Assembly (NCBI RefSeq): GCF_900090195.1
Contig: NZ_LT607803.1
Span: forward strand, 7,032,229-7,096,228
Length of the DNA: 64,000 bases
Source of the DNA: Variovorax sp. HW608
GTDB lineage: Bacteria > Pseudomonadota > Gammaproteobacteria > Burkholderiales > Burkholderiaceae_C
Reading direction: 5' to 3'
Part shown: in pieces, positions 1 to 16,072 of the stretch
How the letters are laid out: every line of letters starts with the position of its first letter
How positions within the stretch are numbered: position 1 is the stretch's first letter
The notes under the pieces: generated by a model
What the model was told of the DNA's origin: nothing
The model's database searches: none
The model's input: the letters and a program-made list of their open reading frames with translations, nothing else
Program-made: the position numbers and the translations under genes

Positions 1-1201
1 GCTCCAGCCACTCCTGGGCCACGTCGCCGGGATACACGTCCTCGACGCCATCGCGCAGCGCCTTGACGATCGCATTCGCGAGCGCGCCCGGCGCCAGCTT
101 GGGCGGCGGCGTGTGCTGGTTCCATTCGTCGTCGATCGGGCCGGGGAACACGTTGATGACCCGAATGCCCGCCGGCCGCATCTCGGCGCGCAGGCATTGC
201 GCAAGCGAGTGCGCGGCCGCCTTCGATGCGCTGAACGTGCCATGCGGCGGGAAGTTGGTCAGCGCATAGATCGACAGCAGGTTGACCCACGCGGTCGCGC
301 CGGTCACACCATCGGCCGAGCGGCCCTTGAGCGCCGGGCCGAATTCCTGCGCCAATCGCAGCAGGCCGAAGTAGTTGATGTCCATCTCGGCCTTCGCCAC
401 GTCGGTGCCGCGACGTGCGCCAATGCCGAAGGTGCGATGCACTTCCGCGTTGTTGATGACGATATCGACCTTGCCGCCGATCTCGCCGGCCAGTTCGCTC
501 ACCGAGCGGCCGTTGGTCAGGTCCAGCGGCACCAGCGTGACCTGCGGCAGCGCGGTGATGTCGTCGAGGCCACCGCCCATCTTCTTCCACGGCTCGGCGT
601 GGCCGACCCAGACGATGTCGGCGCCGGCCTTGACCAGCGCGCGCACGATCGCCTGGCCCACTTCGGTCTTGCCGTCGGTGACCAGCACCTTGCGGAATTT
701 CGGGTCGCTCGTCATTTCACGGAGCATCTTGTCGTCAGCCATATGGGGGCTCCCTTCGTTCGGAAATCCAATGAGGACGGCTTGTCCGGCGCGGTCGAGC
801 CGGGCGCCGACACGCACGCGCCGCGGTGCATCGCCGACCTCGCCGTGGAGGTGGACCATCAAGGTCGGGCCGGCATCCAGATGCACGAGGCCCAGCCGCC
901 ATGGCAGCCGTTCACGGAAGAACAGGTCGTTGCTGTGGTGCAAGGTGGTGGCGCTCAGCAGCTCGCCTTCGCCGCTCTGTTCGCGCCAGTGAAGAAGGGG
1001 CGAAAGGCACTTGTGGCAGGCCTCGCGCGGCGGGTATTGCACGGTGCCGCAGGCTTCGCAGGTCTGCAATACGAAGCGGCCCTCGGCGGCACCGGCCGTG
1101 ATGCCGAGCGCGACGCGGCCGCGTGCCCACGGCGGCAGGTTCATCTGCCGCGTACGCAGGACGGGGTTCTTGCGCTTGGGGCGCATCAAGGGCATGGTCA
1201 T
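1..1201 (-). CDS. DUF35 zinc-ribbon/OB-fold protein fused to a degenerate short-chain dehydrogenase (3' end outside window)
   Basis: One reading frame runs without a stop from ATG at 1201 to the window edge. Residues 1-153 are a DUF35-type protein with a rubredoxin-like zinc ribbon (C48, C51, C62, C65) followed by an OB-fold. From Met154 on it is an SDR Rossmann domain. The SDR part is atypical: the glycine motif reads TDGKTEVGQ (175-183), so two of three glycines are lost, and the Y-x3-K pair is F323-x3-K327, with the catalytic Tyr replaced by Phe; the Ser 13 residues before it remains. DUF35 proteins normally pair with thiolase-fold enzymes, and the gene directly upstream is one, overlapping by 4 nt (ATGA). 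Met154 could also serve as a separate start, but no stop separates the domains. Likely role: CoA-ester-binding partner of the upstream enzyme. The SDR half may be structural rather than catalytic. Confidence 0.8.
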   Translation of the reverse strand, partial: MTMPLMRPKRKNPVLRTRQMNLPPWARGRVALGITAGAAEGRFVLQTCEACGTVQYPPREACHKCLSPLLHWREQSGEGELLSATTLHHSNDLFFRERLPWRLGLVHLDAGPTLMVHLHGEVGDAPRRVRVGARLDRAGQAVLIGFPNEGSPHMADDKMLREMTSDPKFRKVLVTDGKTEVGQAIVRALVKAGADIVWVGHAEPWKKMGGGLDDITALPQVTLVPLDLTNGRSVSELAGEIGGKVDIVINNAEVHRTFGIGARRGTDVAKAEMDINYFGLLRLAQEFGPALKGRSADGVTGATAWVNLLSIYALTNFPPHGTFSASKAAAHSLAQCLRAEMRPAGIRVINVFPGPIDDEWNQHTPPPKLAPGALANAIVKALRDGVEDVYPGDVAQEWLE

Positions 1202-2367
1202 GCCGGTCTCCCGAGAATGATGGCGCCGGTGCACAGGCACCGGTCGTAAGTCACCATGCCGAAGCCGGCGACGAGGCCGAGTTGCGCATCGGGCACCGTG
1301 CGCGCTCCGGCGGTATCGGTTAGTTGGCGGATGGCCTCGGTCATGCCCAGGAAGCCGCCCGCCGCGCCGGCCTGCCCCGCGGAAAGCTGCCCGCCGCTGG
1401 TGTTGTTGGGAAAGCTGCCATCGTTCGTCATCACATGCGACTGCACGAAGGCCGAGCCCTCGCCCTTCTCGCAGAAGCCGAGGTCCTCGAACTGCATCAT
1501 CACGATGACGGGATAGTCGTCGTAGGTCTGCACGAAGTCGATGTCGGCGGGCTTCACGCCGGCCTGCGCATAGAGGTCATCGCGATCCATGCGCCAGCCG
1601 CCGCGCACCATCACCGGGTCTTCCGAATAAGCGTTGTGCCGCTCGATCGCGCCGCGGATCACCGCATGCGGCAGGCCGAGATCGCGCGCGCGCTCCTCGC
1701 TCATCACGAGGAAGGCTTCGGCGCCGGCGCACGGCATCACGCAGTCGAACAGATGGATCGGATCGGAGATCGGCCGCGCGGCCATGTATTCGTCGAGCGT
1801 GAGCGGCTTCTTGAACATCGCGTGCGGGTTCTTCAGCGCGTTGCTGCGCTGGTCCACGCAGATGCGGCCGAAGTCCTCGCGCCTGGCACCGAAGGTGCGC
1901 ATGTAGTGCGAGGTGATCATCGCGAAGATCGAGTTCGGGCCGCCCGATCCGTACGGATAGGTCGCATCGCGCGCGAAGTTGCTGAAGCTGCCGAGCGTGA
2001 GGCGGAACGAATCGACATGGTTGGTGTCGGCGGCGACACAGGCAACCACGTCTGCATCGCCGGACTGCACTGCCCGCGCAGCGCGGCGCAGGCACATCAC
2101 GCCCGATGCGCCGCCGGTGGGCACATGGTCGAGCCAGCGCGGCGACAGGCCCAGGTGCTGCGTCACGCCGACCGCCGTGTCGGGCACGAGCGAGAAGCTG
2201 CTGACGCAAAGACCGTCGATCTGCTCTTTCTTCACGCCACTCGCCTTCACCAGCGAGTCGATCGCCTGGCCGAGGAACCAGTGGGCGCTGCGCGTGGAGT
2301 AGCGCACGTAGGGCACCGTCACCGGCACCGCGACGGCCACGCCTTCGTAGGAGAGCCGGCGCGTCAT
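1198..2367 (-). CDS. Thiolase-fold (SCP2/Ltp2-like) acyl-CoA enzyme, probably a retro-aldolase
   Basis: A 389-residue protein of the lipid-transfer/SCP2 thiolase family. At the position of the thiolase nucleophile motif (C-x-S-G) it reads TGGASG (84-89), so the catalytic Cys is absent. Where SCP2 thiolases have an H-D motif it has TYDDYP (281-286), and a second Tyr lies near 374. Loss of Cys with conserved Tyr is the signature of Ltp2-type steroid side-chain aldolases, which work with a DUF35 partner; here that partner is encoded immediately downstream with a 4-nt overlap. It also overlaps the upstream CoA-ligase gene by 4 nt, so the three are probably translationally coupled. Inferred role: cleavage of a beta-hydroxyacyl-CoA made by the ligase and oxygenase. 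Annotation pipelines would probably call it acetyl-CoA acetyltransferase. Confidence 0.8.
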   Translation of the reverse strand: MTRRLSYEGVAVAVPVTVPYVRYSTRSAHWFLGQAIDSLVKASGVKKEQIDGLCVSSFSLVPDTAVGVTQHLGLSPRWLDHVPTGGASGVMCLRRAARAVQSGDADVVACVAADTNHVDSFRLTLGSFSNFARDATYPYGSGGPNSIFAMITSHYMRTFGARREDFGRICVDQRSNALKNPHAMFKKPLTLDEYMAARPISDPIHLFDCVMPCAGAEAFLVMSEERARDLGLPHAVIRGAIERHNAYSEDPVMVRGGWRMDRDDLYAQAGVKPADIDFVQTYDDYPVIVMMQFEDLGFCEKGEGSAFVQSHVMTNDGSFPNNTSGGQLSAGQAGAAGGFLGMTEAIRQLTDTAGARTVPDAQLGLVAGFGMVTYDRCLCTGAIILGRPA

Positions 2368-3986
2368 GACTGCCTCTTCTTCATCGAACGCGTATCGACG
2401 CAGTTCGCGCGGCCCGGCAAGGATTGCGCGAGCTCGCGAAGCTGGCCGCGCTGGATCTTCTGCGACGCAGTGAGCGGCAGCGCATCGACGAAGGCGACAT
2501 AGCCCGGTGCCTTGTAGTACGCGAGTTGCGACAACGCATGGTCAACGATGCTGGACGCGAGCTTCGCGGGTTCATCCGAATCCGCATCCTCACGCAGCAC
2601 GATGCACGCGAGCACCTCATCGCCGCGCACGGCGTCAGGCGTCGCCGCCACCGCCGAGGTCTTCACCGCCGGATGCTGGTTGAGCACGCTTTCGACCTCG
2701 ACCGCCGAGATGTTCTCGCCGCTGCGGCGGATCACGTTCTTCTTGCGATCGACGAAATAGTAGTTGCCTTCGGCATCGCGGCGCACCATGTCGCCGGTGT
2801 GGAACCATCCTCCGACCCATGCCTCGCGCGTCGCTTCCTCATCCTTCAGGTAGCCGGAGAAGAAGTAGCGCTTCGGGTCATCGCCCGAGGAGCGCACCAG
2901 CAGTTCGCCCGGCGTGCCATCGGGCGCATCGCGACCGTCGTCGCCCTCGAGGCGGATCTCGACGAAGTCCTCGCGGCGGCCGAAGCAGTTGGTGCCGACA
3001 TGGCGCGGCGCGTGGTTCGCCATCACGCAGGCGGCGGCGCCGGTCTCGGTCATGGCCCAGGCCTCGACCAGCGGGAAGCCGAAGCGTTCTTCGAAAGGCG
3101 CGTGGTTCTTGCGATCCACGCCGGCGCCGAAGCCCCAGCGGATGTCGTGCTCGCGGTCCGCCGCGGCGGCGGGCGCTGACAGCAGCATTGCGGGCATCAC
3201 GCCGAGGTAATGCACGATGGTGGCGCGGCTTTCGCGCGCACTCTGCAGCCAGCTCTTCGGGTGAAAGCGGTCGAGCTGCACGAGGCAGCCGCCCTCGACG
3301 AGCACCACCATGGTCGAGAACGCCATCGCGTTCACATGGTTGAGCGGCAGCGGCGTGATGATGCGCTCGGCGTCGGGCCGCACCGGGCAGAGGTCGCCGA
3401 GTTCCGCGTACCACTGGCCGGCGCGCAGGAAGTACTCGTTGCTCAACATGCAGCCCTTGGGCCGGCCGGTGGTGCCGGACGTGTACAGAAGCGCGCATTC
3501 GGTGGAAAGGCCAACAGGCTCCGGTGCATGCGGCGCGGGCTTGGTCGCGGGCGGCACCGCATCGTCCGGCCCCATCGTCTCGAAGGGAATGCCGGCGATC
3601 TTCGCCGCCGCGCGCAGGTCGTCCGCACGCTGCGGCAGCGTCACGGCGAGGCCGATCTCGCTGTGGCCGATGAGATAGCTCAGTTCGGCCGAGCGCATCT
3701 CGGCATTGATCGGCACCACGCTCACGCCCAGTGCATTGAGCGCGAACCAGTGAAAGAGGAATGCCGGCCGGTTCTCCAGCAGCAGCCCGACGCGGTGGCC
3801 GTGGCCGTAGCCGGCCTTTGCATAGGCGGCACGCAGGCGCTCCACCTGCGCGGCGGCATCGCCCCACAGGATCGCGCCCGGCGCGATGTCGTAGGCCTGC
3901 GCGGTGACCGATTCGGTGAACAGGAACTCGGCCCCGGGCGTGCGCCGCGCGCTCGCGCTGAAGGCGTCGTGAACGGTGTGATGCAT
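2364..3986 (-). CDS. AMP-forming acyl-/aryl-CoA ligase
   Basis: A 540-residue ANL-superfamily adenylate-forming enzyme that should activate a carboxylic acid to its CoA thioester with ATP. Visible motifs are the P-loop-like LLYTSGTTGRPKG (around residues 165-178), the WAMTETG region near the middle, the GWFHTGDMVRRD motif, and the C-terminal SQKIQRGQLRE segment holding the catalytic lysine. The ATG at 3986 follows the dioxygenase beta stop by 7 nt, and the end overlaps the thiolase-fold gene by 4 nt. Position in a ring-hydroxylation cluster suggests an aromatic or indolic acid, or its hydroxylated product, as substrate. This cannot be fixed from sequence alone. Confidence 0.87.
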   Translation of the reverse strand: MHHTVHDAFSASARRTPGAEFLFTESVTAQAYDIAPGAILWGDAAAQVERLRAAYAKAGYGHGHRVGLLLENRPAFLFHWFALNALGVSVVPINAEMRSAELSYLIGHSEIGLAVTLPQRADDLRAAAKIAGIPFETMGPDDAVPPATKPAPHAPEPVGLSTECALLYTSGTTGRPKGCMLSNEYFLRAGQWYAELGDLCPVRPDAERIITPLPLNHVNAMAFSTMVVLVEGGCLVQLDRFHPKSWLQSARESRATIVHYLGVMPAMLLSAPAAAADREHDIRWGFGAGVDRKNHAPFEERFGFPLVEAWAMTETGAAACVMANHAPRHVGTNCFGRREDFVEIRLEGDDGRDAPDGTPGELLVRSSGDDPKRYFFSGYLKDEEATREAWVGGWFHTGDMVRRDAEGNYYFVDRKKNVIRRSGENISAVEVESVLNQHPAVKTSAVAATPDAVRGDEVLACIVLREDADSDEPAKLASSIVDHALSQLAYYKAPGYVAFVDALPLTASQKIQRGQLRELAQSLPGRANCVDTRSMKKRQS

Positions 3987-3993
3987 GGCGGCC

Positions 3994-4479
3994 CTAGATG
4001 AAAAGCTGCACCGCCGGCAGCGCCGCGTCGCAGTTGAGCAGGTTCACGCGCTTCAAGGTCATGCGCAGTGCGCCGTTCTGCACCGCGAGGTGGTGGAAGA
4101 AGGTGCCGACGTAGAACTGAAGCTCGTCGCCCTGCGACTCGGTGTAGTGGAACTCGGTGCGCACCACGAAGCGGTTCGCGGCCGCGTCGAATTCCTCGAC
4201 CGTTGGCGTCTGGAGCAGATGGTGGCAGCGGCTCGGCGGCTGCTGCGAGAAGGCCCGCGGACTCTTCAGGCGCTCGATGCGCAGGTCGCGCAAAAGCTTG
4301 TCTTCGTAGAGATGCGAGGTGTGGTTGATGCCGTCTTCCTGGTTGGGGATCAGCGGCACCCAGTAGAAAGCATCGTCGGTGAAGAGCGCGTTCCATTCGT
4401 CGAAGCGCTTGGCATCGAGCAGGCGCGATTCATGAACGACGAAATCGATGAGCTGCTGGCGGGTGACTTCGTTGTGCAT
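3994..4479 (-). CDS. Aromatic ring-hydroxylating dioxygenase, beta (small) subunit
   Basis: A 161-residue protein of the NTF2-like small-subunit family that packs with the Rieske alpha subunit. Conserved features include the N-terminal QLIDFVVHESRLLD helix, FTDDAFYWVPL, and the C-terminal FYVGTFFHHLAV and ALRMTLKRVNLL strands. The ATG at 4479 overlaps the alpha stop by one base (TGATG), which supports translational coupling. Because coupling depends on alpha being translated to its true stop, the frameshift in alpha could also reduce expression of this subunit. Confidence 0.88.
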   Translation of the reverse strand: MHNEVTRQQLIDFVVHESRLLDAKRFDEWNALFTDDAFYWVPLIPNQEDGINHTSHLYEDKLLRDLRIERLKSPRAFSQQPPSRCHHLLQTPTVEEFDAAANRFVVRTEFHYTESQGDELQFYVGTFFHHLAVQNGALRMTLKRVNLLNCDAALPAVQLFI

Positions 4480-5793
4480 CACATGGTCTCCGTCATGTAC
4501 TTGGCCCAGCTTCTGTATTGATTGCGCATCGGCAGTTCGTTGGTGCCGACGGTGGTGATCTCGCCGCCCTTCTTCTCCGCCGGGTCGTAGTTGCGATGCA
4601 GGCTGACCCACTCGTTGCCGCTCGCATGCAGCCCGGCCTGCATGCCGCGGTAGGCCTGCAGGTCGTCATGGCCCACGACCGAGAACGGCGAGTTGATGAG
4701 CCGGTTGTACATGGCGGTGCGCTGCAGCAGTTCCGGCGGCGCGCCCTTCAAGCGGAAGGTCCAGCTCTCGACCAGGCACTTGTCGGCGGCGATCGGCTTT
4801 GACCACGCGGATCGACTGGATCGCGCCCTTGATCGTGAGGTTCGGGTAGTAAACCGTGTTGTGCCGCGCCATGCCGAGGATCTGCGCGGTGCGTTCCTCG
4901 CCGTACCTGGCCTTCATCGCGTTGTCGTACTCGGGGATCGCCTTGTACTTGCTGTGGATGCTGAAGTGCACGCCGGTGAAGCTGTGGCCGTTGTCGTAGG
5001 TGCGAACGCCCATGTCCTCGAAGAACTTGTAGTCGGACATGAAGGGCACGAACTGCTCGATCGCCATCGGCTTCGGCTCGTCGGCCGGCTTGTCGGCCCA
5101 CATGGTCTTGGCGGTGCCGGCCGAAGATTCGTGCGCCACCATCGGATGCATGGTGTCGTTGAGGTTCTCGACGAACATCTTCCAGTTGCACTGGTGGATG
5201 AAGCGCAGGCACCCGCCGGCGATCTCCAGTTCGCCTTCGGGCGAGCGGTCGGCCATGTTGTCGATGGAGCTCAGCGAATCGCCGAAGTACGCCTCGAAGC
5301 CCGGGCCGGCGTCGTTGATCTTCACGAAGATGAAGCCGCGATGGCTGCGCACGTTCTTCACCGTGACGAGGCCCTTGGCCGATTCGCACTCGTGGAGCTG
5401 CGTGCCTTCGTAGCCGTTCTTCAGCGGGATCGACAGCAGCGAGCCGTCGGTCTTGAAGGTCCAGGCGTGGTAGGGGCAGCGGAAGAACTTGCCGGTGTTG
5501 CCGCAGGGCGAGCTCACGAGGCGCGAGCCCTTGTGCGCGCAGCGGTTCATCATCGCGCGCACCGAGCCGTCGGTGTGGCGCGTGATGATCAGCGGCCGGC
5601 CCGCGATCTCGTTGGTGATGTAGTCGCCGGGCTTCGGGATCTGGCTTTCGTGGCCGGCGTAGTTCCAGGTGTTGGCGAAGAAGTGCTCCTGCTCCAGCTC
5701 GAACAGTTCCTGGCTGATGTAGAGGTCGCGATGCACGCGGTCGTCCTGCACCAGCGCGCGCACGGCATCGGGGTTGCCTCGATATGAAGTCAC
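4479..5793 (-). pseudogene. Aromatic ring-hydroxylating dioxygenase, alpha subunit, interrupted by a +1 frameshift
   Basis: The 5' part (GTG at 5793, AGGAG Shine-Dalgarno 8 nt upstream) encodes a Rieske domain with C85-x-H87 and C106-x2-H109. The mononuclear iron site is D213-x2-H216-x4-H221. After SIRVVK the frame is lost at the T run 4798-4800 (AAA on the coding strand). Deleting one base there restores an uninterrupted protein to the stop at 4479, about 437 aa, the usual alpha length. The uncorrected product is 375 aa with a nonsensical Arg-rich tail. The 1315-nt span is exactly one base over a multiple of three. Either a real mutation that disables the oxygenase or a homopolymer assembly error; intact motifs on both sides favour a very recent or artefactual event. 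The enzyme would hydroxylate an aromatic or indolic ring with electrons from the reductase at 5974-6966. Confidence 0.85.
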
Positions 5794-5872
5794 TCTATCT
5801 CTCCTTCATGTTGTCATTGCACTTCGCACGACCACGCACCCCATGACAGAGGGCCGCGGAGCAGGCCATGCG

Positions 5873-5931
5873 CGGGCACCCGCGGAACCGGCTCCGCCGG
5901 GCCGCAAGGGTGCGCCCCCTTGAGGGGGTGC
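5873..5931. repeat. Dispersed intergenic GC-rich repeat, copy A
   Basis: The gap between the reductase stop and the dioxygenase alpha start contains an element with two short inverted repeats: CGGGCACCCG, and a C-run/G-run hairpin around GCCCCCTTGAGGGGG. Its reverse complement matches 40441-40497 nearly base for base with one small indel and a few substitutions. This resembles the REP-like intergenic elements common in Comamonadaceae. No coding potential. Confidence 0.75.
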
Positions 5932-5973
5932 AGAGCCACACGCAGTGGGCGAGGCTGGGGGTGGTCTTCATTT

Positions 5974-6966
5974 CTAGATGTCGAGCACCAAGCGCTGGCC
6001 CTTGGCGCGGGAGATGCAGATCTGCATCACATTGCCTTCGGCCTTCTCGCGCGCGGTGAGCACGTAGTCGCGATGGTCGATCTCGCCGTCGATCACCGGC
6101 GTCGCACAGACGCCGCATTCGCCGCGCTTGCAGTCGAACATCGGGTCGCAGCCGTGCTCGATCAGGCAGTCGAGGATGCTCTGATCGGCCGGCACTGTGT
6201 AGCGCTGGCCCGACTGCGCGAGCTCGACTTCGAAGGCGTGGTCGCCCTCTTCCACCGCCGGCGTGGTGAAGAGCTCGAAGTGCACGCGGTCGTGCGTCCA
6301 GCCGCGCGCCTGCGTCTGCGCGAGAACCGCGTCGAGCATGACCTTCGGGCCGCACACATAGAGGCGGTCGCCGGCCGGGAAGCCGTCGAGCAGCGCGCCG
6401 ATGTCGAAGGGACCGCCCTGCTCGACATCGGCATGCACGCGCAGGTCGTCGCCCAGCAGGCTTTGCAGCTCGGGCAGGAAGGCCATCAGGTCGCGGCTGC
6501 GGCCGGCGTAGTGCAGGCGCACCGGCAGGTTCTCCGCGCGGCGGCGCGTGGCCATGCTCGCGAGCGGCGTGATGCCGATGCCGCCGGCCAGCAGTACGGT
6601 GCCGCCGGGGCCGGTGTGGAGCGGGAAGTCGTTCTTCGGCGCTTCGATGGTGACCGTGTCGCCTTCGCTCAGGCGCTCGTGCATGAAGCGCGAGCCGCCG
6701 CGGCCTTCGTCCTCCTTGCGCACCGCGATCACGTACTCGATCGGCGCCTCGGTCGCATCGGCCTCGGCCGCGAAGTTGATCAGCGAGTAGTGGCGCCAGT
6801 CCTTCTTGCCGTCAGGGAGCGTGACTTCGATGCGGATGTGCGCACCGGCGGCATAGGCCGGCAGCACTGCGCCGTCGACGGCGCGCAGCCTGAACAGCTT
6901 GATCAGCGGATTGAGCGAACGCGCCTCGGCGACGCGCAGTTGCAGGGTGGCGGGTTGGGCGGACAT
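5974..6966 (-). CDS. Oxygenase reductase (PDR/VanB-type, flavin + NAD + C-terminal 2Fe-2S)
   Basis: A 330-residue electron-transfer reductase. Domain order is a flavin-binding beta barrel with RHYSLIN near residue 80, an NAD(P) domain with GGIGITPLASM and CGPKVMLD, and a plant-type 2Fe-2S domain at the C-terminus with cysteines spaced C-x4-C-x2-C-x29-C. This is the phthalate-dioxygenase-reductase layout. It most likely passes electrons from NAD(P)H to the Rieske oxygenase encoded just downstream. It could also reoxidise the iron-sulfur clusters of the 2-oxoacid oxidoreductase encoded upstream, which is a guess. The start is at MSAQPAT, 14 nt after the upstream stop. Confidence 0.88.
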   Translation of the reverse strand: MSAQPATLQLRVAEARSLNPLIKLFRLRAVDGAVLPAYAAGAHIRIEVTLPDGKKDWRHYSLINFAAEADATEAPIEYVIAVRKEDEGRGGSRFMHERLSEGDTVTIEAPKNDFPLHTGPGGTVLLAGGIGITPLASMATRRRAENLPVRLHYAGRSRDLMAFLPELQSLLGDDLRVHADVEQGGPFDIGALLDGFPAGDRLYVCGPKVMLDAVLAQTQARGWTHDRVHFELFTTPAVEEGDHAFEVELAQSGQRYTVPADQSILDCLIEHGCDPMFDCKRGECGVCATPVIDGEIDHRDYVLTAREKAEGNVMQICISRAKGQRLVLDI

Positions 6967-6980
6967 GGATTCGATCCGGT

Positions 6981-8474
6981 TCAGGCGAGCGCGTGTTGAA
7001 GGAGCGCGGCGCGCAGCTTGTCGCCGTGCTCGTCGGCCAGCGCCGCGTCGCGCAGTTCGCGCAGGGTGGCGGGCGCGATGGCGGCGCCTGCGCGCTGCAG
7101 CGCGGCCATCACGGTGTCGTAGTTGCGAAGGCCGCGCTCGTGCGTGTCGCTGTAGCCCTTGACCAGGCGCTGGCACTGGGCGACCTCGACGGCGAGCTCG
7201 GGGTTGCGCGCGGCGGCCTCGGCGATGCGGCCCAGCCATTCCTCGATGCGGCGGTTCTCGTCCGCAAAGCGGATGGTCGAGCGGCGCCAGCGCTTCATGC
7301 CGGCGACGGTGCGCAGCATCAGGTAGCCGCGCAGCGAGCTGGTCTGGATCACGCGGCCCTTCTGCGTCATGCGCTCGACGAGCTTGCGCGGTGCGGTCGA
7401 GTTCATGAGCCAGCGGCCGAAGCCGGCGGGCAGCGTCTCGCAGATTTCCTGCAGCCGCGGATGCATGTATTCGTTGATCGCGAGCACCTGGCCCTGCTGC
7501 ACGCGCGCCTCGCCACGCACGCGGTCGAAGCGTGTCGCGCGGGTCTTGAGCGCGGCGACCCGCGCGGTGTCTTCGTAGGACATCCACAGCGCAAGATGGC
7601 GCGCGGTCTCGCGCAACAGCCTGCCGCCGTCGTTGGCGGGCAATGCGGCGACGGCGGCCATGCGGTCGAGGTAGAGGCCCGCATAGGCGACATCCTGGTA
7701 GTCGATGAGGCGCCGCACGCCTTCGAGCAGCACGGGCTGCGCATCGGCAGGGAATTCGCCTTGCGCGCGCTCCACCAGCGCGCGCACGGCAGGGTGGCGT
7801 GGTTGCGGCGCTGGCGACTGCTGCAGCGCAGCGGCCGGCGTTTCCGCCTCGCCCTGCGCGCGTGCGAATGCGGCGCCGAAGGCCTTCAGGCTTGGCTTGA
7901 CGCCGACACCGCCGCGTTCGATCGTGGCCTCGAACTGCGCGCGGCTGAACGGCAGCACGCCCGCGCCACACAGCGCGCCGAACAGCACCGCGCTGATCAC
8001 GCTGCCCGAGGCTTCGGCGGCCTGCGCCATGTCGAAGCGGATGAAGCGCTTGGCCGCGCGTTCCGCGTGGCCCAGCAGTTCGTTGCTGTCGACGCGGCCG
8101 TCGCCCATCGCACTCTTCTCGGCGATGGAATAGACGCGGTGCGTGGAGGCGATCAGCGTGGTGCGGTCGTTGGTGACGAGCCCGCGCTGCACCGCGCGGC
8201 CGGCCTCCATCAGCTCGGAGGCCAGCACCACGTCGACGTCGCCCGGCAGCGGCATCAGCGCCAGCACCGGCTTGCCGCCATCCGCATCGGCCTGCGCCTG
8301 CGGAAACAGCTCGACGTAGTAGATGGTCGCGCCGGTGCGCTGAGCGACACCCGGCACCGAAGTGGTCTGGGCGACGTAGCCGTTGGTCTCGCCCATGTCG
8401 ACGATCCAGTCGGCGAGCACGCCGCCGCCTTCGCCCCCCATGGCAAGAATCGCAATCTTGATTGGTTGGGTCAT
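6981..8474 (-). CDS. Indolepyruvate:ferredoxin oxidoreductase beta-like subunit
   Basis: A 497-residue protein. The N-terminal ~200 residues form the gamma/beta (POR_g-like) domain of 2-oxoacid:acceptor oxidoreductases, with the AILAMGGEGGGVLADWI nucleotide-binding start and SVPGVAQRTGAT. The C-terminal ~270 residues are the helical extension found in proteobacterial IorB-like proteins. The start MTQPIKIA at 8474 lies 16 nt after the alpha stop; in-frame upstream starts at 8501 and 8522 would overlap alpha. Together the two subunits should oxidatively decarboxylate a 2-oxo acid to an acyl-CoA. An aryl or indolic 2-oxo acid fits the neighbourhood. Confidence 0.85.
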   Translation of the reverse strand: MTQPIKIAILAMGGEGGGVLADWIVDMGETNGYVAQTTSVPGVAQRTGATIYYVELFPQAQADADGGKPVLALMPLPGDVDVVLASELMEAGRAVQRGLVTNDRTTLIASTHRVYSIAEKSAMGDGRVDSNELLGHAERAAKRFIRFDMAQAAEASGSVISAVLFGALCGAGVLPFSRAQFEATIERGGVGVKPSLKAFGAAFARAQGEAETPAAALQQSPAPQPRHPAVRALVERAQGEFPADAQPVLLEGVRRLIDYQDVAYAGLYLDRMAAVAALPANDGGRLLRETARHLALWMSYEDTARVAALKTRATRFDRVRGEARVQQGQVLAINEYMHPRLQEICETLPAGFGRWLMNSTAPRKLVERMTQKGRVIQTSSLRGYLMLRTVAGMKRWRRSTIRFADENRRIEEWLGRIAEAAARNPELAVEVAQCQRLVKGYSDTHERGLRNYDTVMAALQRAGAAIAPATLRELRDAALADEHGDKLRAALLQHALA

Positions 8475-8490
8475 TGCTCGCTCTATCGAA

Positions 8491-10650
8491 TCAGAAGGCA
8501 TATTCGGCGCGCCGCTTGGCATCGCCCTTCTGCAGCCAGCCGATGACGCGCTGGCGCAGGGCGTCGCGCAGGCGGTCCCAGCGGCTGGGGTTGCTCACGA
8601 TCTGCGCCTTGTAGAACGAGGGACACAGCACCGCAGCGTGCGAGACCTCGCCGCAGACGCCGCAGCCCACGCAGCTGTCGAGCACATGCGCCACCGGGTC
8701 GGTGCGCAGCGGATCGGGATTCGGCTTGATCGACAGCGACGGGCAGCCCGAAAGCCGGATGCACGAGTGGTCGCCGGTGCAGGTGTCGGAATCGACGCCG
8801 AACTTCTCGCGCACCTGGCGCTTGCCCTCGGCGATCGCCTTGCGCACCAGCGGCTTCTCGCGGCGCTGGCGGTTCAGCATGCATTCGGATTGCGCGACCA
8901 GCACCTTCGGGCCCTTCTGCCTGGTGGTCAGCGCGTCCTTGAGCGCGTCGCGCATGCCCGCGACGTCGTAGGTGCGGCGCAGGGTCCTGACCCACTTCAC
9001 GCCGACGCCGCGCACCGCGCGCTCGATCTCGTGGCCGGTGCTGCGCGTGGCGTTGACCGCCTTCGACGACAGGATGTCCTGCCCGCCGGTCGCGGAGGTG
9101 TAGTTGTTGTCGACGACGATCGTGAGGTTGTCGCTCTCGTTGAAGACCGCGTTGGCGATGCCGCTGGTCAGGCCGTTGTGCCAGAAGCCGCCGTCGCCCA
9201 TGACCGAGATCGCGCGCTTGCCGGCCTGGGTGTTGAGCGCGGCCGCGCCGGCAGCACCGAGCCCGTAGCCCATCGTGGTGTTGCCGATGTTGAAGGGCGG
9301 CAGGATCGAGAACAGGTGGCAGCCGATGTCGGCGCTGACGTGGTGCGCGCCGAGCTCGCGTTCGACCAGCTTCATCGCGCTGAAGATCGGGCGCTCCGGG
9401 CAACCGGTGCAGAAGCCCGGCGGGCGCGCATGCACGCTTTCGGCGAGCGGCTTCGCGGGCTCGGCCACGGCCTTGAGCGGAATCACCTTGCGCACCGGTG
9501 CAGGCACCGGCAGCGCTTGCAGGCGGCCGTAGCGCTCGCCGAAGCTGCGCGCGCCCTTCAGCAGTTCGGCGGCGGTGTATTCGCCGGCCACGGGCAGCAT
9601 GTCCTTGCCATGCAGTGCGGTGCCCGATCCCGCCTGCCGCAGGATGGTCGCGAGGTTCTGTTCGATGAAGTTCGGCTGGCCTTCCTCGACCACCAGCACC
9701 GCGCGCTTGCCTTCGCAGAAGCGCAGCACTTCGCTTTCGATGACCGGATAGGCCACGTTCATCACGTAGAGCGGCACCTTGGTGTTGCCGTAGACGTCGG
9801 CCAGATCGAGCCGCTCGAGCGCACGCATCAACGTGTTGTAGCTGCCGCCCTGCACGATGATGCCGATATCGTCCGCGTCTTCGGAAAAGAACTCGTTGAG
9901 CTGGCGCTCCTCGATGAACTTCACCGCGGCGGGCCAGCGGTCCTTCACCTTTTCCTGCTCGTGCAGGAAGCTCGCGGGCGGCAGCACGATGCGGCTGACG
10001 TCGCGCTGCGGGTTCTCCAGCGCTTCCTTGAGCGTGAACTTCGCGCGGCGGTTGTCACCGGCGACGAACTGGCCGTGCACGTGGCAGGCGCGGATGCGCA
10101 GCTGCAGCATCACCGGCGTATGGCTCGCTTCCGAGAGATCGAAGCCCTGCTTGACCGCATCCACGATCGAGGGCAGGTTCGGGCGCGGATCGAGCAGCCA
10201 GATCTGCGACTTCATCGCGAAGGCGTGGCTGCGTTCCTGCATGATCGACGAGCCTTCGCCGTAGTCCTCGCCGACGATGACCAGCGCGCCACCGGTCACG
10301 CCGCCCGACGCGAGGTTGGCGAGCGCGTCGGACGCCACGTTGGTGCCCACGGTCGCCTTGAAGGTTACGGCGCCGCGCAGCGGGTAGTTGACCGAGGCCG
10401 CGAGCGTGGCGGCGGCGGTGGCCTCGCTCGCGCTGTTCTCGAAGCGGATGCCGTGCTCGGTCAGGATGTCCTGCGCATCGGCCAGCACGTCCATGAGATG
10501 CGAGATCGGCGCGCCCTGGTAGCCGGCGACATAGGAAACACCTGACTCCAGCAAGGCCTTGGTGACTGCCAGAATGCCTTCACCACGAAACACCTCGCCG
10601 CCCGAGAGCCGCAGCTTCTTTACTTCTTCGACGAACGATCGCTCAGCCAT
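8491..10650 (-). CDS. Indolepyruvate:ferredoxin oxidoreductase alpha-like subunit (ThDP, 4Fe-4S)
   Basis: A 719-residue IorA-like protein. The N-terminal transketolase-pyrimidine-like domain (GYQGAPISHLMDVL, FENSASEATAAA) is followed by a ThDP-pyrophosphate domain containing CTGCPER, GDGGFWHNGLTSG and VVDNNYTSATGGQD. The C-terminal ferredoxin-like region has two Cys sets (DTCTGDHSCIRLSGCP, and C-x2-C-x2-C with a later C-P). It is the first gene of the minus-strand operon. ATG at 10650 has AAAGGG about 7 nt upstream. Expected reaction: 2-oxo acid + CoA to acyl-CoA + CO2 with an electron carrier. The family is clear, the true substrate is not. Confidence 0.87.
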   Translation of the reverse strand: MAERSFVEEVKKLRLSGGEVFRGEGILAVTKALLESGVSYVAGYQGAPISHLMDVLADAQDILTEHGIRFENSASEATAAATLAASVNYPLRGAVTFKATVGTNVASDALANLASGGVTGGALVIVGEDYGEGSSIMQERSHAFAMKSQIWLLDPRPNLPSIVDAVKQGFDLSEASHTPVMLQLRIRACHVHGQFVAGDNRRAKFTLKEALENPQRDVSRIVLPPASFLHEQEKVKDRWPAAVKFIEERQLNEFFSEDADDIGIIVQGGSYNTLMRALERLDLADVYGNTKVPLYVMNVAYPVIESEVLRFCEGKRAVLVVEEGQPNFIEQNLATILRQAGSGTALHGKDMLPVAGEYTAAELLKGARSFGERYGRLQALPVPAPVRKVIPLKAVAEPAKPLAESVHARPPGFCTGCPERPIFSAMKLVERELGAHHVSADIGCHLFSILPPFNIGNTTMGYGLGAAGAAALNTQAGKRAISVMGDGGFWHNGLTSGIANAVFNESDNLTIVVDNNYTSATGGQDILSSKAVNATRSTGHEIERAVRGVGVKWVRTLRRTYDVAGMRDALKDALTTRQKGPKVLVAQSECMLNRQRREKPLVRKAIAEGKRQVREKFGVDSDTCTGDHSCIRLSGCPSLSIKPNPDPLRTDPVAHVLDSCVGCGVCGEVSHAAVLCPSFYKAQIVSNPSRWDRLRDALRQRVIGWLQKGDAKRRAEYAF

Positions 10651-10701
10651 GGCGCCCTTTCTTGTCCGGAATCGTGGGGTTCCAACAGAAACCTCGGTCT
10701 C

Positions 10702-10707
10702 TATAAT
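10702..10707 (+). promoter_or_regulatory. Putative -10 box of the marR promoter
   Basis: A perfect TATAAT lies 26 nt before the marR ATG. The -35 region (TTCCAA at 10680-10685, spacing 16) is weak. It overlaps the opposite promoter back to back, so one bound repressor could block both. Confidence 0.55.
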
Positions 10708-10708
10708 G

Positions 10709-10720
10709 TTTAGAACTGAA
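10709..10720. promoter_or_regulatory. Candidate MarR operator palindrome
   Basis: TTTAGAACTGAA has the imperfect dyad TT-n-AG-nn-CT-n-AA. It sits inside the spacer of the minus-strand promoter and just after the marR -10 box, where a MarR dimer would repress both directions. Assignment rests on position and symmetry only. Confidence 0.4.
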
Positions 10721-10733
10721 TGTATCCACAATC

Positions 10734-11273
10734 ATGAATAACCCTAAACATGCAAGCGGCGTGCCCACCGCGGACCAGGGGCCATTCACCGGGGAGGTGC
10801 CGGAACGCGAGCTCCGTTTCGTCGACGACTACCTGCCCGCACTGCTCGCGCAGGCCAGCCAGCTGATTTCCTCCGAGTTCCACGAAGTTGCGCGCAAACA
10901 CGGCTTTTCGGTGTCGGAATGGCGCGTGATGGCGTCGCTGGCGGGCGGGGAGGCGATCAGCATCGGGCAGCTGGCACAGGTCACGGTGACCAAGCAGCCC
11001 ACTGTCACGCGGCTCCTGGATCGCATGGAAGCGCGCGGTCAGGTCGAGCGCCTGCCCCATGACAGTGATCGTCGGATCACTTTGGTGCGGATCACGCGCA
11101 AGGGCTCCAAGGCCGTGGAACATCTGATGGAACTGGCGCGCGAGCACGAGATGCGCGTGCTCGAACCCTTCGGCCTGCAGCGCGCGGAGGAGCTCAAGCG
11201 CACGCTGCGGCAGCTCATCGAGCTGCATGCGCGCGCGCCGGGCGATGCGCCCGAGGGCGGCGACGAGGAGTGA
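10734..11273 (+). CDS. MarR-family transcriptional regulator
   Basis: A 179-residue winged-helix regulator. The HTH/wing region spans roughly residues 55-110 (ISIGQLAQVTVTKQPTVTRL, then DSDRRITLVRITRKG). The N-terminal ~35 residues and C-terminal tail are extensions to the MarR core. It is transcribed divergently from the ring-hydroxylase operon with only an 83-bp gap, so it most likely represses that operon and itself until an aromatic ligand binds. MarR proteins control indole-3-acetate degradation loci in Variovorax, which fits but does not prove the substrate. Confidence 0.9.
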   Translation: MNNPKHASGVPTADQGPFTGEVPERELRFVDDYLPALLAQASQLISSEFHEVARKHGFSVSEWRVMASLAGGEAISIGQLAQVTVTKQPTVTRLLDRMEARGQVERLPHDSDRRITLVRITRKGSKAVEHLMELAREHEMRVLEPFGLQRAEELKRTLRQLIELHARAPGDAPEGGDEE

Positions 11274-12173: not shown

Positions 12174-13118
12174 TCAGCGCCCCGCCACCAGCACCGCGCG
12201 GCCGCGATGGCCGCGCTGGCCGATCCAGTTCATGGCCTTCGCGGCGTCTTCGAGTGCGAAGGGCTGGACATCCAGCTTCAGGCGCCCATCGGCCAGTCGC
12301 GCCAGCAATTCGGGGGCCGCAGCATGGCCGGCCGCTTCGCGGCGGAACATGTTCAGCGGCAGCAGCGAAACATCCCGTTGCAGGAAGTGCGCGATGTCGA
12401 GCGTCAGCGTGTTGCCGGCGGTGTAGCCGACTAGCACCGCGCGGCCGCCGGAGCGCACGCGCGGCAGCGCAGCAGCGAGTACCGGGCCGCCGACCGTGTC
12501 GACCAGCAGGTCGACCGAGACTGAATCCAGCGAAGATGCGAGATCGCTGCCCGGCACCAGCACCTTGGCGCCGGATGGCATCCTGGCCGCCTGCGCTGCG
12601 TCGGCCACGAGCGCCGTCACCTCGGCACCTGCATCGAGCGCCAGTTGCACCGCGAGCGATCCGACTGCGCCCGTCGCGCCGGTCAGGAGAACGCTTTCGC
12701 CGGCCGAGAGCCGCGCGACGTCATGCAGCGCGACCCACGCCGACGTGCTCGGCGAGAAGAACGCTGAGCCGATCATGGACGGCACGCCATCCGGCAACAC
12801 ACCCAGTGCTTCATCGGGCGCGTCGATGACCTCGCACCAGGTGCCGTCGAACAGCGTGCCCAATCCGCTGCCGCGCAGCCACACGCGCCGGCCTTCGGGA
12901 TGCACATGGCTCGCGACCACCACGCCCGCGGCCTCGACACCCGGCGTGTAGGGGAACGGCGGATGCTTCAGAAAGCTGCCACGCCACACCGTCCGGTCGA
13001 TGTGGCCGACCGTGGCCGCTTCCATGCGCACCAGCGTGCGTGCGGGACGCAAGGCCGGCTCCGGAAGGTCTTCGAGCACCGGCGGCGAGTCGAACGCATG
13101 TACGCGCACGGCCTTCAT
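12174..13118 (-). CDS. Zinc-independent quinone-oxidoreductase-like MDR dehydrogenase
   Basis: A 314-residue medium-chain dehydrogenase/reductase with an N-terminal GroES-like fold (PYTPGVEAAGVVVA) and the NAD(P)-binding motif LLTGATGAVGSLAVQLA near residues 145-161. No structural-zinc Cys cluster is seen, which points to the quinone-oxidoreductase/enoyl-reductase branch. It is the last gene of a four-gene minus-strand operon and overlaps the hydrolase gene by 4 nt. Substrate unknown; reduction of an enone or quinone intermediate of the same pathway is plausible. Confidence 0.85.
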   Translation of the reverse strand: MKAVRVHAFDSPPVLEDLPEPALRPARTLVRMEAATVGHIDRTVWRGSFLKHPPFPYTPGVEAAGVVVASHVHPEGRRVWLRGSGLGTLFDGTWCEVIDAPDEALGVLPDGVPSMIGSAFFSPSTSAWVALHDVARLSAGESVLLTGATGAVGSLAVQLALDAGAEVTALVADAAQAARMPSGAKVLVPGSDLASSLDSVSVDLLVDTVGGPVLAAALPRVRSGGRAVLVGYTAGNTLTLDIAHFLQRDVSLLPLNMFRREAAGHAAAPELLARLADGRLKLDVQPFALEDAAKAMNWIGQRGHRGRAVLVAGR

Positions 13119-13918
13119 CGCAGCGTCTCCAGGAAGTCGAGCACCGCGCGTGCGAAGGCCTCGGGCATTTGGTCCGGCAAGGGCACCATGCCGCCCTCGA
13201 TGTCGACGATGCGCGCGTTCGCGAGATGCTCGTGCAGTTCGGCGGCATGCGGCGATGCGAAGGGATCGTCGGTTGCGCGGATCAGCAGCGTGGGCTGCCT
13301 GACGAGACGGATGCGGTCTTCCATCCGGTAGGCCGCGACCGCGCGATGGCCATCTTCAGGGCTGCCACTGGCCTTCAGTGCGTCGCGCACAAAGGCTTCG
13401 AGCATTTCGGGCCGGCCCGGAGGATAGAAGCCTTGACGGCGCTGCCACAACGCGGCGAGATGGCTGCCGTCTTTGCTGGCCGCGACTTCGTCGATCGGCG
13501 GACTTCCGGTGCGAGCCTTGCGGAACGCGGCATTCGTATAGGGCGTCGACGAAAGCACGAGCCCGCGCACGCGCTGCGGAAAAGCTGCCGCGAGTTCGAC
13601 CGCGATCACACCGCCGGTGTGATGGCCCACGACGTCGACCTGCGCGATCTGCAGCGTATCGAGCAATTCGCAGGCAACCCGCGCCCACTGCTCGATGCTG
13701 GCCGGCGCATCGCCCGCGGCCGAATCGCCGAAGCCCACCGTGTCCATCGCGATCGCGCGGCGCTGCGCACCGATCAGCGGCAGCACCTCGCGGTACTCCA
13801 TCCAGCTTCGCGGCGACTGGTGCAGCAGCAGCACGGCGGGCGCTTCGCGATCGCCGCATTCGGCGTAGTGGATCTGCCCCGGCGAGAGGTCTGCGAAGGC
13901 GCGCCGGATCTTGTTCAT
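13115..13918 (-). CDS. Alpha/beta-hydrolase-fold protein with GHHTG elbow
   Basis: A 267-residue alpha/beta-hydrolase fold. Visible are the oxyanion strand LLLHQSPRSWMEYR, DTVGFGDS, the elbow VVGHHTGGVIAVEL (G98-H99-H100-T101-G102), and a C-terminal acid/His region (IRATDDPFASPH). The elbow consensus G-x-Nuc-x-G has His100 in place of Ser, Cys or Asp. It may therefore be a lyase- or isomerase-like member rather than an esterase. It overlaps both neighbours by 4 nt, so the genes are co-translated. Confidence 0.8.
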   Translation of the reverse strand: MNKIRRAFADLSPGQIHYAECGDREAPAVLLLHQSPRSWMEYREVLPLIGAQRRAIAMDTVGFGDSAAGDAPASIEQWARVACELLDTLQIAQVDVVGHHTGGVIAVELAAAFPQRVRGLVLSSTPYTNAAFRKARTGSPPIDEVAASKDGSHLAALWQRRQGFYPPGRPEMLEAFVRDALKASGSPEDGHRAVAAYRMEDRIRLVRQPTLLIRATDDPFASPHAAELHEHLANARIVDIEGGMVPLPDQMPEAFARAVLDFLETLR

Positions 13919-14916
13919 GACTGCGTTTCGCTCGCTGGCGGCTTCCACAAGCCCGCATGCTTGAGCATGCCGAGCGTGCGCGACAGCACATCGCGACGGT
14001 ACGCCCCCACGTCGCGCCCTTCGTAGTCGTAGAAGCCGCTGCCGCTCTTGAGGCCGAGCCGCCCTTCCTCGACCATGCGATCCACGATCGCCGGCGCGGT
14101 GTAGCGTGCGCGGTCGATCGAGCCCGACATCTCGCGGCTCGCGTGATGCAGGATGTCGCAGCCGCCGAAGTCGATGAACTCCACCACGCCGAGCGCCGCG
14201 AAGCGCAGTCCCAGGCCGTAGCGCGTGGCCTTGTCGATTTCTTCGCCCGTGGCGGCGCCTTCCTCGATCATGCGCGCGGCCTCGTTCATGACGAGCGCCT
14301 GCAGCCTCGGCACGATGTAGCCCGGCGTCGGGCCGCACACCACGGGCAGCTTGCCGATCGATTCCATCAGCGCCTTGGTGCGCGCGAGCACGGCGGCATC
14401 GGTGCCCGCGTGGCAGCTCAGTTCGACCACCGGAATCACATAGGCCGGGTTGAGCCAGTGCATGTTGAGGAAGCGCTCCGGCCGCCGCACCATCGCCGCC
14501 AGCTCGGTCACGAGGATGCTGCTGGTGGTGGAGGTGAGGATCGCGTCGTCGCTGCAATGGCGGTTGATGTGCAGGAAGGCCTCGTGCTTGGCGTCGAGCG
14601 TTTCCGGCACGCCTTCGAAGAGCAGTTCGGCTGCGGCCAAGGCGGCGGGCGCTTCATCGGCCTTCACGAGCTCGACGCGGGCCGCGATCGCGGGCACCTG
14701 CGCCGCATCGATGACGCCGAGTTGCGACAGGCCCGAGAGGCTGGCGATGATTTCGGCCTGCGCCTCGGCGCGCAGCTTCAGCCACGCTTCGTCGCTGCGC
14801 GGACGCAGGTCGATCAGCGAGATGCGATGGCCTGCATAGGCAAAGGCGATCGCGATGCCGCGCCCCATGCGGCCTGCGCCGACAGCGGCAAACCTCGGCA
14901 AGCCTTCATTCCCCAT
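13915..14916 (-). CDS. 3-hydroxyacyl-CoA dehydrogenase
   Basis: A 333-residue NAD-dependent enzyme of the 3-hydroxybutyryl-CoA dehydrogenase family. The N-terminal Rossmann motif is AVGAGRMGRGIAIAFAYAG. The catalytic region shows STTSSILVTEL and NMHWLNPAYVIPVVE with the conserved His before NP. The C-terminal 3HCDH helical domain contains GRLGLKSGSGFYDYEG. It would oxidise a beta-hydroxyacyl-CoA, or a related hydroxy acid as in gulonate or carnitine dehydrogenases. It overlaps the upstream opine-dehydrogenase-like gene by 11 nt. Confidence 0.86.
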   Translation of the reverse strand: MGNEGLPRFAAVGAGRMGRGIAIAFAYAGHRISLIDLRPRSDEAWLKLRAEAQAEIIASLSGLSQLGVIDAAQVPAIAARVELVKADEAPAALAAAELLFEGVPETLDAKHEAFLHINRHCSDDAILTSTTSSILVTELAAMVRRPERFLNMHWLNPAYVIPVVELSCHAGTDAAVLARTKALMESIGKLPVVCGPTPGYIVPRLQALVMNEAARMIEEGAATGEEIDKATRYGLGLRFAALGVVEFIDFGGCDILHHASREMSGSIDRARYTAPAIVDRMVEEGRLGLKSGSGFYDYEGRDVGAYRRDVLSRTLGMLKHAGLWKPPASETQS

Positions 14917-15979
14917 CGTGCAGCCTCTTGCGCAGTTCCGCCGGCGTCAGCGTGTCGAGGCCCAGCGTCTCGAACGTGCGCGGCCCCTTGCGCAGATCGC
15001 GGCCGAGGAAGCCGGCGACGATCGCCAGCAGGCCATGCGCGATCGGCGCATCGACGCCGGCATAGCGCGCGGCCGATGCGAGGAAGGCCAGGCCGAGCTC
15101 GGTATCTTCGGTGATGTAGCGGTGCGTGTGCAGGTCGATGTTCTCGCGCCAGTCTCCCGACTTCACGAGTTGCTTGTGCGCATCGCCGTACATCCACTGG
15201 TCGTTGTCGTAGTGGTCCGCGAGCGGATAGTGCGGCGCGCCGTGGCCGAATGCCTCGCGCACCGCCATGCGCTCCTGGTCGAGCCTGTCGGTCACGTCGC
15301 GCACGGCGCGCTGCGTGCCTTCGTTGTGGATGTCCCAGCGCTCGAAGTGCTGGAGCGGCGCGGCGTTCATCACCATCAGTGGCGGGTGGATGATCGGGCC
15401 GGCATTCATCAGCGCACCCGAGAGTGCATCGCCGCAGCCATGCACCGACGGATAGGCCTTGCGGATGACCGCGATCGCCATCTCCTGCTTGCGCGCGGGA
15501 TACACGCCGGTGGGCAGGCGGATCGCGCGGATGGTCACGTTCACTTCGCGCTCGCCGTGCTTGCGCGCGAGATAAGGGAGCGTGCCGGTCTCGGCCCAGG
15601 CCACGTCGGCATGGTTGCCCGATTCGGCCACGATGCGCGCCATCACGTAGCTGCCGAAGGTGCCGGGCGGCAGGAACACCACCTGCCCGTCAACCAGGTG
15701 CGGCGCCATCGCGCGTGCGATGTCCGCCTGCGCAATGGCGGGCGTGGGCAGCACGATGAGCTCGGCATCGTTCATGGCCGCCCCGATGTCGGGCGTGGCG
15801 AGCGCGATCTTGACGTCGCGCGCGCCCGCGGCGTCCTTCAGCGCGATGGAGCCGGTGCGGATGACGGGCTCCAGAGCGGCTGCATCACGACGCCAGAGGC
15901 GCACTTCGTGTCCGGCTTCGGACAGGTCGGCGGCGGCCGCATAGGCGCCGTGACCGCCACCAAGAATCGCGATTTTCAT
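14906..15979 (-). CDS. NAD/NADP octopine/nopaline-dehydrogenase-family protein
   Basis: A 357-residue protein. The Rossmann start AILGGGHGAYAAAADLSEAG (residues 3-22) is followed by the helical C-terminal domain typical of octopine/nopaline dehydrogenases (HNEGTQRAVRDVTDRLDQER). Family enzymes reductively join an amino acid and a 2-oxo acid, but many bacterial members have unknown substrates. The ATG at 15979 is chosen because the dinucleotide motif begins directly after it; an in-frame TTG 42 nt upstream would add a non-conserved tail. It heads the four-gene operon, downstream of a promoter with a palindrome. Confidence 0.82.
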   Translation of the reverse strand: MKIAILGGGHGAYAAAADLSEAGHEVRLWRRDAAALEPVIRTGSIALKDAAGARDVKIALATPDIGAAMNDAELIVLPTPAIAQADIARAMAPHLVDGQVVFLPPGTFGSYVMARIVAESGNHADVAWAETGTLPYLARKHGEREVNVTIRAIRLPTGVYPARKQEMAIAVIRKAYPSVHGCGDALSGALMNAGPIIHPPLMVMNAAPLQHFERWDIHNEGTQRAVRDVTDRLDQERMAVREAFGHGAPHYPLADHYDNDQWMYGDAHKQLVKSGDWRENIDLHTHRYITEDTELGLAFLASAARYAGVDAPIAHGLLAIVAGFLGRDLRKGPRTFETLGLDTLTPAELRKRLHDGE

Positions 15980-16072
15980 AGGGCAACAGAAGAAAGATGA
16001 GGTGGACGAACCGGCCGCCAAGGCGCTTCCGGATGACTCGATACCTCAATACATTACTTTTCAACTGTTCAG

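Follow-up and report, generated by a model that had tools for sequence, protein, structure and literature searches.

Predicted retro-aldolase and isatin hydrolase steps in the indole-3-acetate degradation (iad) locus of Variovorax sp. HW608

A 64,000-nucleotide stretch of the Variovorax sp. HW608 genome (contig NZ_LT607803.1, positions 7,032,229 to 7,096,228 of the forward strand; referred to here as the window), taken from a genome of one contig of 7.73 Mb, begins with an operon that combines a Rieske oxygenase, a coenzyme A (CoA) ligase and a thiolase-fold protein. Which compound would this operon degrade, and which of its enzymes would act after the first oxidations? By sequence it is the previously known iad (indole-3-acetate degradation) locus of a Variovorax, for which a route from indole-3-acetate via isatin to anthranilate has already been published (PMC9613470). 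Taken as a whole, the explanation that we consider likely is that IadG and IadH form a retro-aldolase making isatin, which IadI would then open, with a possible further step by IadAB.

Identity and organization of the locus

The operon genes lie on the minus strand of the window in the order IorA-like, IorB-like, reductase, Rieske alpha, Rieske beta, CoA ligase, thiolase fold and DUF35, with a MarR gene opposite:

10734..11273, plus strand: MarR regulator, MarR_73 orthologue (best PDB match 7kfo, E 3.2e-82)
8491..10731, minus strand: IadA, IorA-like subunit, true start codon uncertain (TIGR03336, 291 bits; TPP_enzyme_C)
6981..8522, minus strand: IadB, IorB-like, with DUF6537 (NF006179, 743 bits; PF20169, PF01558)
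5974..6957, minus strand: IadC, flavin/2Fe-2S reductase (PF00111, PF00970), upstream of iadD in related loci
4479..5793, minus strand: iadD, Rieske oxygenase alpha subunit, frameshifted by one base near 4,800 (its two pieces, in different frames, match IadD 9o71, 7yls)
3994..4482, minus strand: IadE, Rieske oxygenase beta subunit (PDB 7yls_A, E 5.2e-95)
2364..3986, minus strand: IadF, acyl-CoA ligase (PF00501, PF13193)
1198..2367, minus strand: IadG, protein with a thiolase fold, candidate retro-aldolase (nearest match Sal aldolase 9myr)
1..1201, minus strand, remainder below the window (L010:5174-6430:-): IadH, 418 amino acids in all, fusion of DUF35 (N half; PF12172, PF01796) and short-chain dehydrogenase/reductase (SDR; C half)
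L009:19118-19930, outside the window: IadI, predicted isatin hydrolase (isatin hydrolase structures, E 8e-112)

In PDB comparisons the alpha subunit scored 717-723 bits against IadD and 152 bits against the next protein, and a phthalate-, cinnamate- or benzoate-type oxygenase was rejected on these scores. A paralogous cluster for another substrate was also rejected, as the alpha subunit, beta subunit and MarR protein were all closest to iad proteins. The MarR protein retains the Ser and Arg replaced by Ala in the indole-3-acetate-blind mutant 7krh (residues read from the 7krh alignment), and the Ser/Arg double mutant of MarR_73 held no ligand (PMC9613470); a MarR_73-type repressor would free the operon on binding indole-3-acetate, as others have shown. 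The parts named in the original prediction, made from the sequence alone, were all found, including the opposing MarR gene, and its choice of indole-3-acetate as substrate agrees with the closeness of alpha, beta and MarR to IadD, IadE and MarR_73; since the alpha subunit falls with IadD and not outside the iad clade, this affiliation stands. The DUF35 partner is likewise present, not as the separate gene that had been supposed but as the N-terminal half of an open reading frame with a C-terminal SDR. The frameshift in iadD was missed in that prediction.

Using the operon's own oxygenase as a query, 80 related loci were collected, mostly from Variovorax, the best at 97% identity, and iadD DNA was matched (E 0.001 or better) in 93 of 101 Variovorax genomes, counting that of HW608 itself. 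The gene order E-F-G-H-I-J was unbroken in 69 of the 71 related loci with at least 8 kb downstream, and IorAB lay upstream of the core in 67 of the 73 with at least 5.2 kb upstream, so the operon arrangement is not due to chance. Only loci with coverage above 0.85 and identity above 55% entered the motif and fusion counts given below (72 of 80 for IadG and IadH; 71 for IadI and IadJ). The iad locus of V. paradoxus CL14/CL014 shares the MarR gene, IorAB, genes C to J and solute-binding proteins, with close orthologues of the alpha subunit, beta subunit and MarR (PMC9613470, PMC10374108, PMC12633357); it differs in that iadD is frameshifted only in the HW608 assembly, and the published functions of IadG, IadH and IadI are not the ones proposed here.

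IadG as a candidate retro-aldolase

At the position of the thiolase nucleophilic Cys, required of a ketothiolase, IadG carries Gly86, which is invariant in 22 of 22 copies, as are Tyr282, Asp284, Gln327 and Gln332; a GGASG motif was found in all 72 loci. The best match was Sal (9myr) by sequence, Foldseek and VIA-align, followed by 6ok1 by Foldseek and 4u4e by sequence and VIA-align. As in Sal and Ltp2, the Tyr base of the YDxx motif (Tyr282) is present without the thiolase nucleophile, and a DUF35 partner (PF12172, PF01796) is encoded beside IadG in 72 of 72 loci. From these active-site residues and the fold, the most likely activity is a retro-aldol reaction by which IadG, together with IadH, would release acetyl-CoA and isatin from dioxindole-3-acetyl-CoA.

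The Sal-Shy(DUF35) aldolase of Comamonas testosteroni (9myr; PMC12329534) shares with IadG-IadH the thiolase fold, the Gly for Cys replacement, the Tyr base, two Gln and the DUF35 partner. It differs in having a catalytic Cys where IadG carries Asp, in acting on a steroid whereas the proposed substrate of IadG is an oxindole, and in its DUF35 fusion, which is to a MaoC hydratase rather than an SDR; the zinc motif of IadH is an ordinary four-Cys one. Ltp2-ChsH2(DUF35) (6ok1) has in common with IadG the Tyr of the YDxF/Y motif, the DUF35 partner and a tertiary beta-hydroxyacyl-CoA substrate, whereas the second Tyr of Ltp2 is Gln in IadG, as in Sal, and the His of YDHF is Asp. In BbsAB/BbsCD of anaerobic toluene degradation, a thiolase fold and a zinc-finger subunit also occur beside SDRs, one of them a pseudoenzyme (PMC10818641). 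There, however, the SDRs are separate proteins and the reaction is thiolysis rather than aldol cleavage, and the Gly of IadG aligns with a Cys in the BbsB chain.

In the proposed pathway, IadCDE and IadJ would oxidize indole-3-acetate to dioxindole-3-acetate, as others demonstrated in V. paradoxus CL014, and IadF, going by its annotation, would form the CoA ester. IadG, bound to the DUF35 half of IadH, would then cleave this tertiary beta-hydroxyacyl-CoA, with Tyr282 as base and Asp284 at the place of the Cys of Sal or the His of Ltp2. IadI, assigned by family, would hydrolyze isatin to isatinate, which IadAB might decarboxylate oxidatively to anthraniloyl-CoA. The CoA ester and the retro-aldol release of isatin envisaged in the original prediction are supported, the latter by the IadG residues and fold, and the ring opening expected after isatin has its enzyme in IadI, just outside the window. 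Its attribution of the 3-hydroxy-oxindole acetate to the oxygenase alone needs correction, as IadCDE acts as a monooxygenase and the second oxidation is completed by IadJ, according to a 2025 preprint (PMC12633357).

The same preprint proposes that IadG, as a ketothiolase, and IadH, as an alcohol dehydrogenase, together with IadF strip the acetyl side chain reductively to give dioxindole, and it suggests that IadI is a broad-specificity amidase (PMC12633357). This proposal rests on annotation and on the accumulation of C8H7NO2, the formula of dioxindole, when iadI is missing, and the fold of IadG is indeed that of a thiolase, with similar Z scores for SCP2 thiolases. If IadG is a retro-aldolase, we infer that this accumulation requires a side reduction of isatin. 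A ketothiolase nevertheless appears improbable, given the Gly in place of the thiolase Cys and the GGASG motif, the absence from IadH of TGxxxGxG (72 of 72 loci) and of the catalytic Tyr (70 of 72), and the closeness of IadI to solved isatin hydrolases. On general chemical grounds the substrate is a further obstacle: dioxindole-3-acetyl-CoA is a tertiary alcohol, and such a compound cannot yield a 3-oxoacyl-CoA without C-C cleavage.

The DUF35-SDR fusion IadH

In all 72 loci the DUF35 domain of IadH reads without a stop into the SDR domain, and the candidate arrangement with DUF35 as its own gene was rejected. The four zinc Cys are invariant in 22 of 22 copies. Both features expected of a classical SDR dehydrogenase, TGxxxGxG and YxxxK, are wanting in the C half of IadH: the glycine motif is altered in every one of the 72 loci, and the catalytic Tyr is Phe in 70, with Tyr and Lys both present in the other two. 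A Foldseek search with the IadH model returned SDRs in the 50 matches listed, the DUF35 half being assigned by sequence, and the best 60 matches of a profile search comprised SDRs only. Judged by these residues, the SDR half is probably not a working dehydrogenase. In CL14, IadH to IadJ are genes 63-65 and IadG is gene 66 (PMC10374108), an order that we read as making IadH gene 65, adjoining IadG.

Alternatively, IadH could be a working reductase, with an SDR half that turns isatin into dioxindole or acts on another carbonyl, while the DUF35 half serves IadG. The 2 loci of 72 with both Tyr and Lys and the C8H7NO2 accumulating in published iadI mutants (PMC12633357) favor such an activity, as does the closest solved SDR, 5u4s, which also lacks the Tyr and yet was solved with NADP. 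Set against these are six copies from distant genomes (see below), in which Tyr, Lys or both are missing, and the changed glycine motif of all copies seen; we regard a working reductase as unlikely.

Some observations nonetheless tell against a retro-aldolase built from IadG and an inactive SDR fusion. The second catalytic residue described for Sal and Ltp2 (Cys304 and Tyr344, respectively) is absent from IadG, with Asp284 and Gln332 there instead in 22 of 22 copies, so the protein is Sal/Ltp2-like at most, as a new variant. Going by the example of 5u4s, IadH may still bind a cofactor. Finally, C10H9NO4 accumulates upon loss of iadF, iadG, iadH or iadI (PMC12633357); the agreement between G and H is what one would expect of subunits of a single enzyme, but it is unspecific because iadI gives the phenotype too.

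IadI and the core genes in distant genomes

IadI aligns with isatin hydrolases of known structure at E 8e-112 (PDB 5nna) and carries the GLQC and HTGTHFDAP motifs in 71 of 71 loci, isatin hydrolases being marked by GLQC or GLAS with the metal motif. Isatin hydrolase A (5nna, 5nmp; PMC6117287) shares GLQC and the HTGTHFD metal motif, and no decisive difference between the two was seen; by sequence, IadI is an isatin hydrolase. The compound C8H7NO3 was found not to be N-formylanthranilate (PMC12633357), which agrees with isatinate.

A search of 398 genomes across the phylum revealed the fusion in six additional genomes from other families at 46-52% identity, in each case between IadG and an isatin hydrolase. 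Over the 13-20 kb stretches examined around these six copies, G-H-I was present in six and an IadF-type ligase in four (once on the other strand), while IadC-D-E-type genes occurred in one and IorAB in none. A fair reading is that an isatin-forming core has been combined with different first steps. At L121-L125 the core was without IadCDE in the examined stretches, and some of these had an Asp/Glu/hydantoin racemase-family gene nearby.

The IorAB-like pair and anthranilate

IadA scored 291 bits against TIGR03336 (indolepyruvate:ferredoxin oxidoreductase alpha), below the cut-off of 651 bits, and a PDB search with IorA returned only oxalyl-CoA decarboxylase (E 6.4e-4). IadB lay above the cut-off of NF006179 (743 versus 348 bits), a model that defines a broad subfamily only. 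At the thresholds applied, 90 of the 101 Variovorax genomes carried iadD together with an iad-type IorB and 11 carried neither, a weak association because linked genes are inherited together. In the genomes of the six loci without an adjacent IorAB, IorB copies were 40-59% identical.

Oxidative decarboxylation of isatinate to anthraniloyl-CoA by IadAB is a tentative proposal, for which we see about an even chance. Only the complete iadC-K2 region led to strong accumulation of C8H7NO3 and C7H7NO (PMC12633357). In our own reading these are isatinate and aminobenzaldehyde, which pile up for want of IadAB; this presumes that the deletion strain is without iadAB. Evidence on the other side comes from the same preprint, in which iadC-K2 without iadAB restored anthranilate in a locus-deletion strain (PMC12633357), so IadAB is not strictly required; moreover, overexpression alone could have caused the two compounds to build up. 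Both points would fit IadAB acting on another 2-oxo acid, for example indolepyruvate toward indole-3-acetate, with anthranilate arising through another decarboxylation, as would the absence of the pair beside the core in all six distant genomes and in 6 of 73 related loci. This alternative has close to an even chance, somewhat tempered by the distance of IorA from the indolepyruvate equivalog cut-off and by the joint presence and absence of IorB and iadD, linked and weak as that is.

A match to anthranilate 1,2-dioxygenase (TIGR03228) above the cut-off was not found in the genome. The HW608 genome holds an unlinked member of the salicylyl-CoA 5-hydroxylase/oxidoreductase family above the cut-off (G000:C1:3213330), and a protein of this family lies beside the G-H-I core in one distant locus (L121:5962-8349, minus strand; 1054 bits, cut-off 1078). 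Such proteins presumably take anthraniloyl-CoA.

The interrupted iadD

An iad locus is expected to hold an intact iadD, and in this assembly the gene is split over two frames, the N part corresponding to IadD residues 1-333 and the C part to residues 348-437, owing to a difference of one base from its relatives near 4,800. The locus is thus iad by descent, with its function in this strain in doubt: as sequenced, the strain would not start the pathway via IadD unless the frameshift is a sequencing error or a second Rieske pair substitutes. Degradation was lost in CL14 once iadDE had been deleted (PMC9613470).

An error of sequencing or assembly is an equally likely source of the frameshift, in which case the strain would degrade indole-3-acetate normally. 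Both pieces lie within one open frame in 99 of 99 other copies (the 80 loci of the oxygenase query and 19 from the Variovorax genome search, sets that may share genomes). Compared in detail with five loci, the shift is the sole frame-changing difference inside operon genes, other differences falling at or between gene ends, and there is no decay elsewhere in the operon. On the opposite side, the assembly is not visibly error-rich: alignment of approximately 53 kb of the window with two relatives yielded, for each relative, only 7 candidate frame changes within predicted genes, none lying more than 200 bases from an end of such a gene. That of iadD is one of the first relative's 7, the aligned stretch of the second relative stopping short of the gene.

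The possible substitute lies in the same cluster, about 4.1-5.9 kb below the window start and approximately 8.6 kb further on from iadD:

L009:14113-15905, minus strand: second Rieske alpha/beta pair, open

A second Rieske was seen in 62 of the 80 related loci; some of the 80 stop short of where one could be seen.

Neighboring genes

Below the window the operon runs on with the isatin hydrolase, a second SDR, solute-binding proteins, the intact second Rieske pair, a Liv-type ATP-binding cassette (ABC) transporter and a second CoA ligase:

L009:7543-9264, minus strand: second CoA ligase (PRK06155, 835 bits, cut-off 722)

This ligase is perhaps an anthranilate-CoA ligase, and its relatives were found near the G-H-I core in three distant loci. 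Three ABC solute-binding proteins, two of them side by side, surround the second Rieske pair (L009:12916-18232, minus strand). Past MarR, open reading frames at 12174-16021 of the window (minus strand) resemble, by eye, quinone oxidoreductase, 3-hydroxyacyl-CoA dehydrogenase and opine-type dehydrogenase.

Implications for auxin degradation

As far as our searches reach, the readings of IadG as an aldolase, IadH as a DUF35-pseudo-SDR and IadI as an isatin hydrolase go beyond the literature; the aldolase, DUF35 and isatin hydrolase readings were not found in searches that most subscription papers lay beyond. The available text of PMC12633357 makes no mention of retro-aldol, DUF35, isatin hydrolase, IadA, IadB or indolepyruvate, that of PMC9613470 none of aldolase, thiolase, DUF35 or isatin hydrolase, and those of PMC10374108 and PMC11630574 none of aldolase, thiolase, DUF35 or isatin, supplements being outside this scope. 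More tentatively, and with less than even odds, all of the following may hold jointly: IadG-IadH is a non-steroid DUF35 retro-aldolase with YDDY, Asp as acid and a pseudo-SDR partner, it belongs to a portable isatin module, and the IorAB pair turns isatinate into anthraniloyl-CoA.

If true, a new branch of DUF35 aldolases would act on an indole, and a Burkholderiales split IorAB-type enzyme would convert isatinate directly to anthraniloyl-CoA, sparing the ATP of a ligase. The portable module, comprising the aldolase and isatin hydrolase, would extend to six distant genomes; in five, the examined stretch has no IadCDE-type oxygenase. Through the iad pathway, Variovorax rescues plant roots from excess auxin, and the pathway is being transferred into other root bacteria; the preprint that dissected it set the steps from dioxindole-3-acetate to anthranilate from annotation (PMC12633357). 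If IadG and IadH are one aldolase, the two would have to be moved together, and the real products would be isatin and acetyl-CoA.
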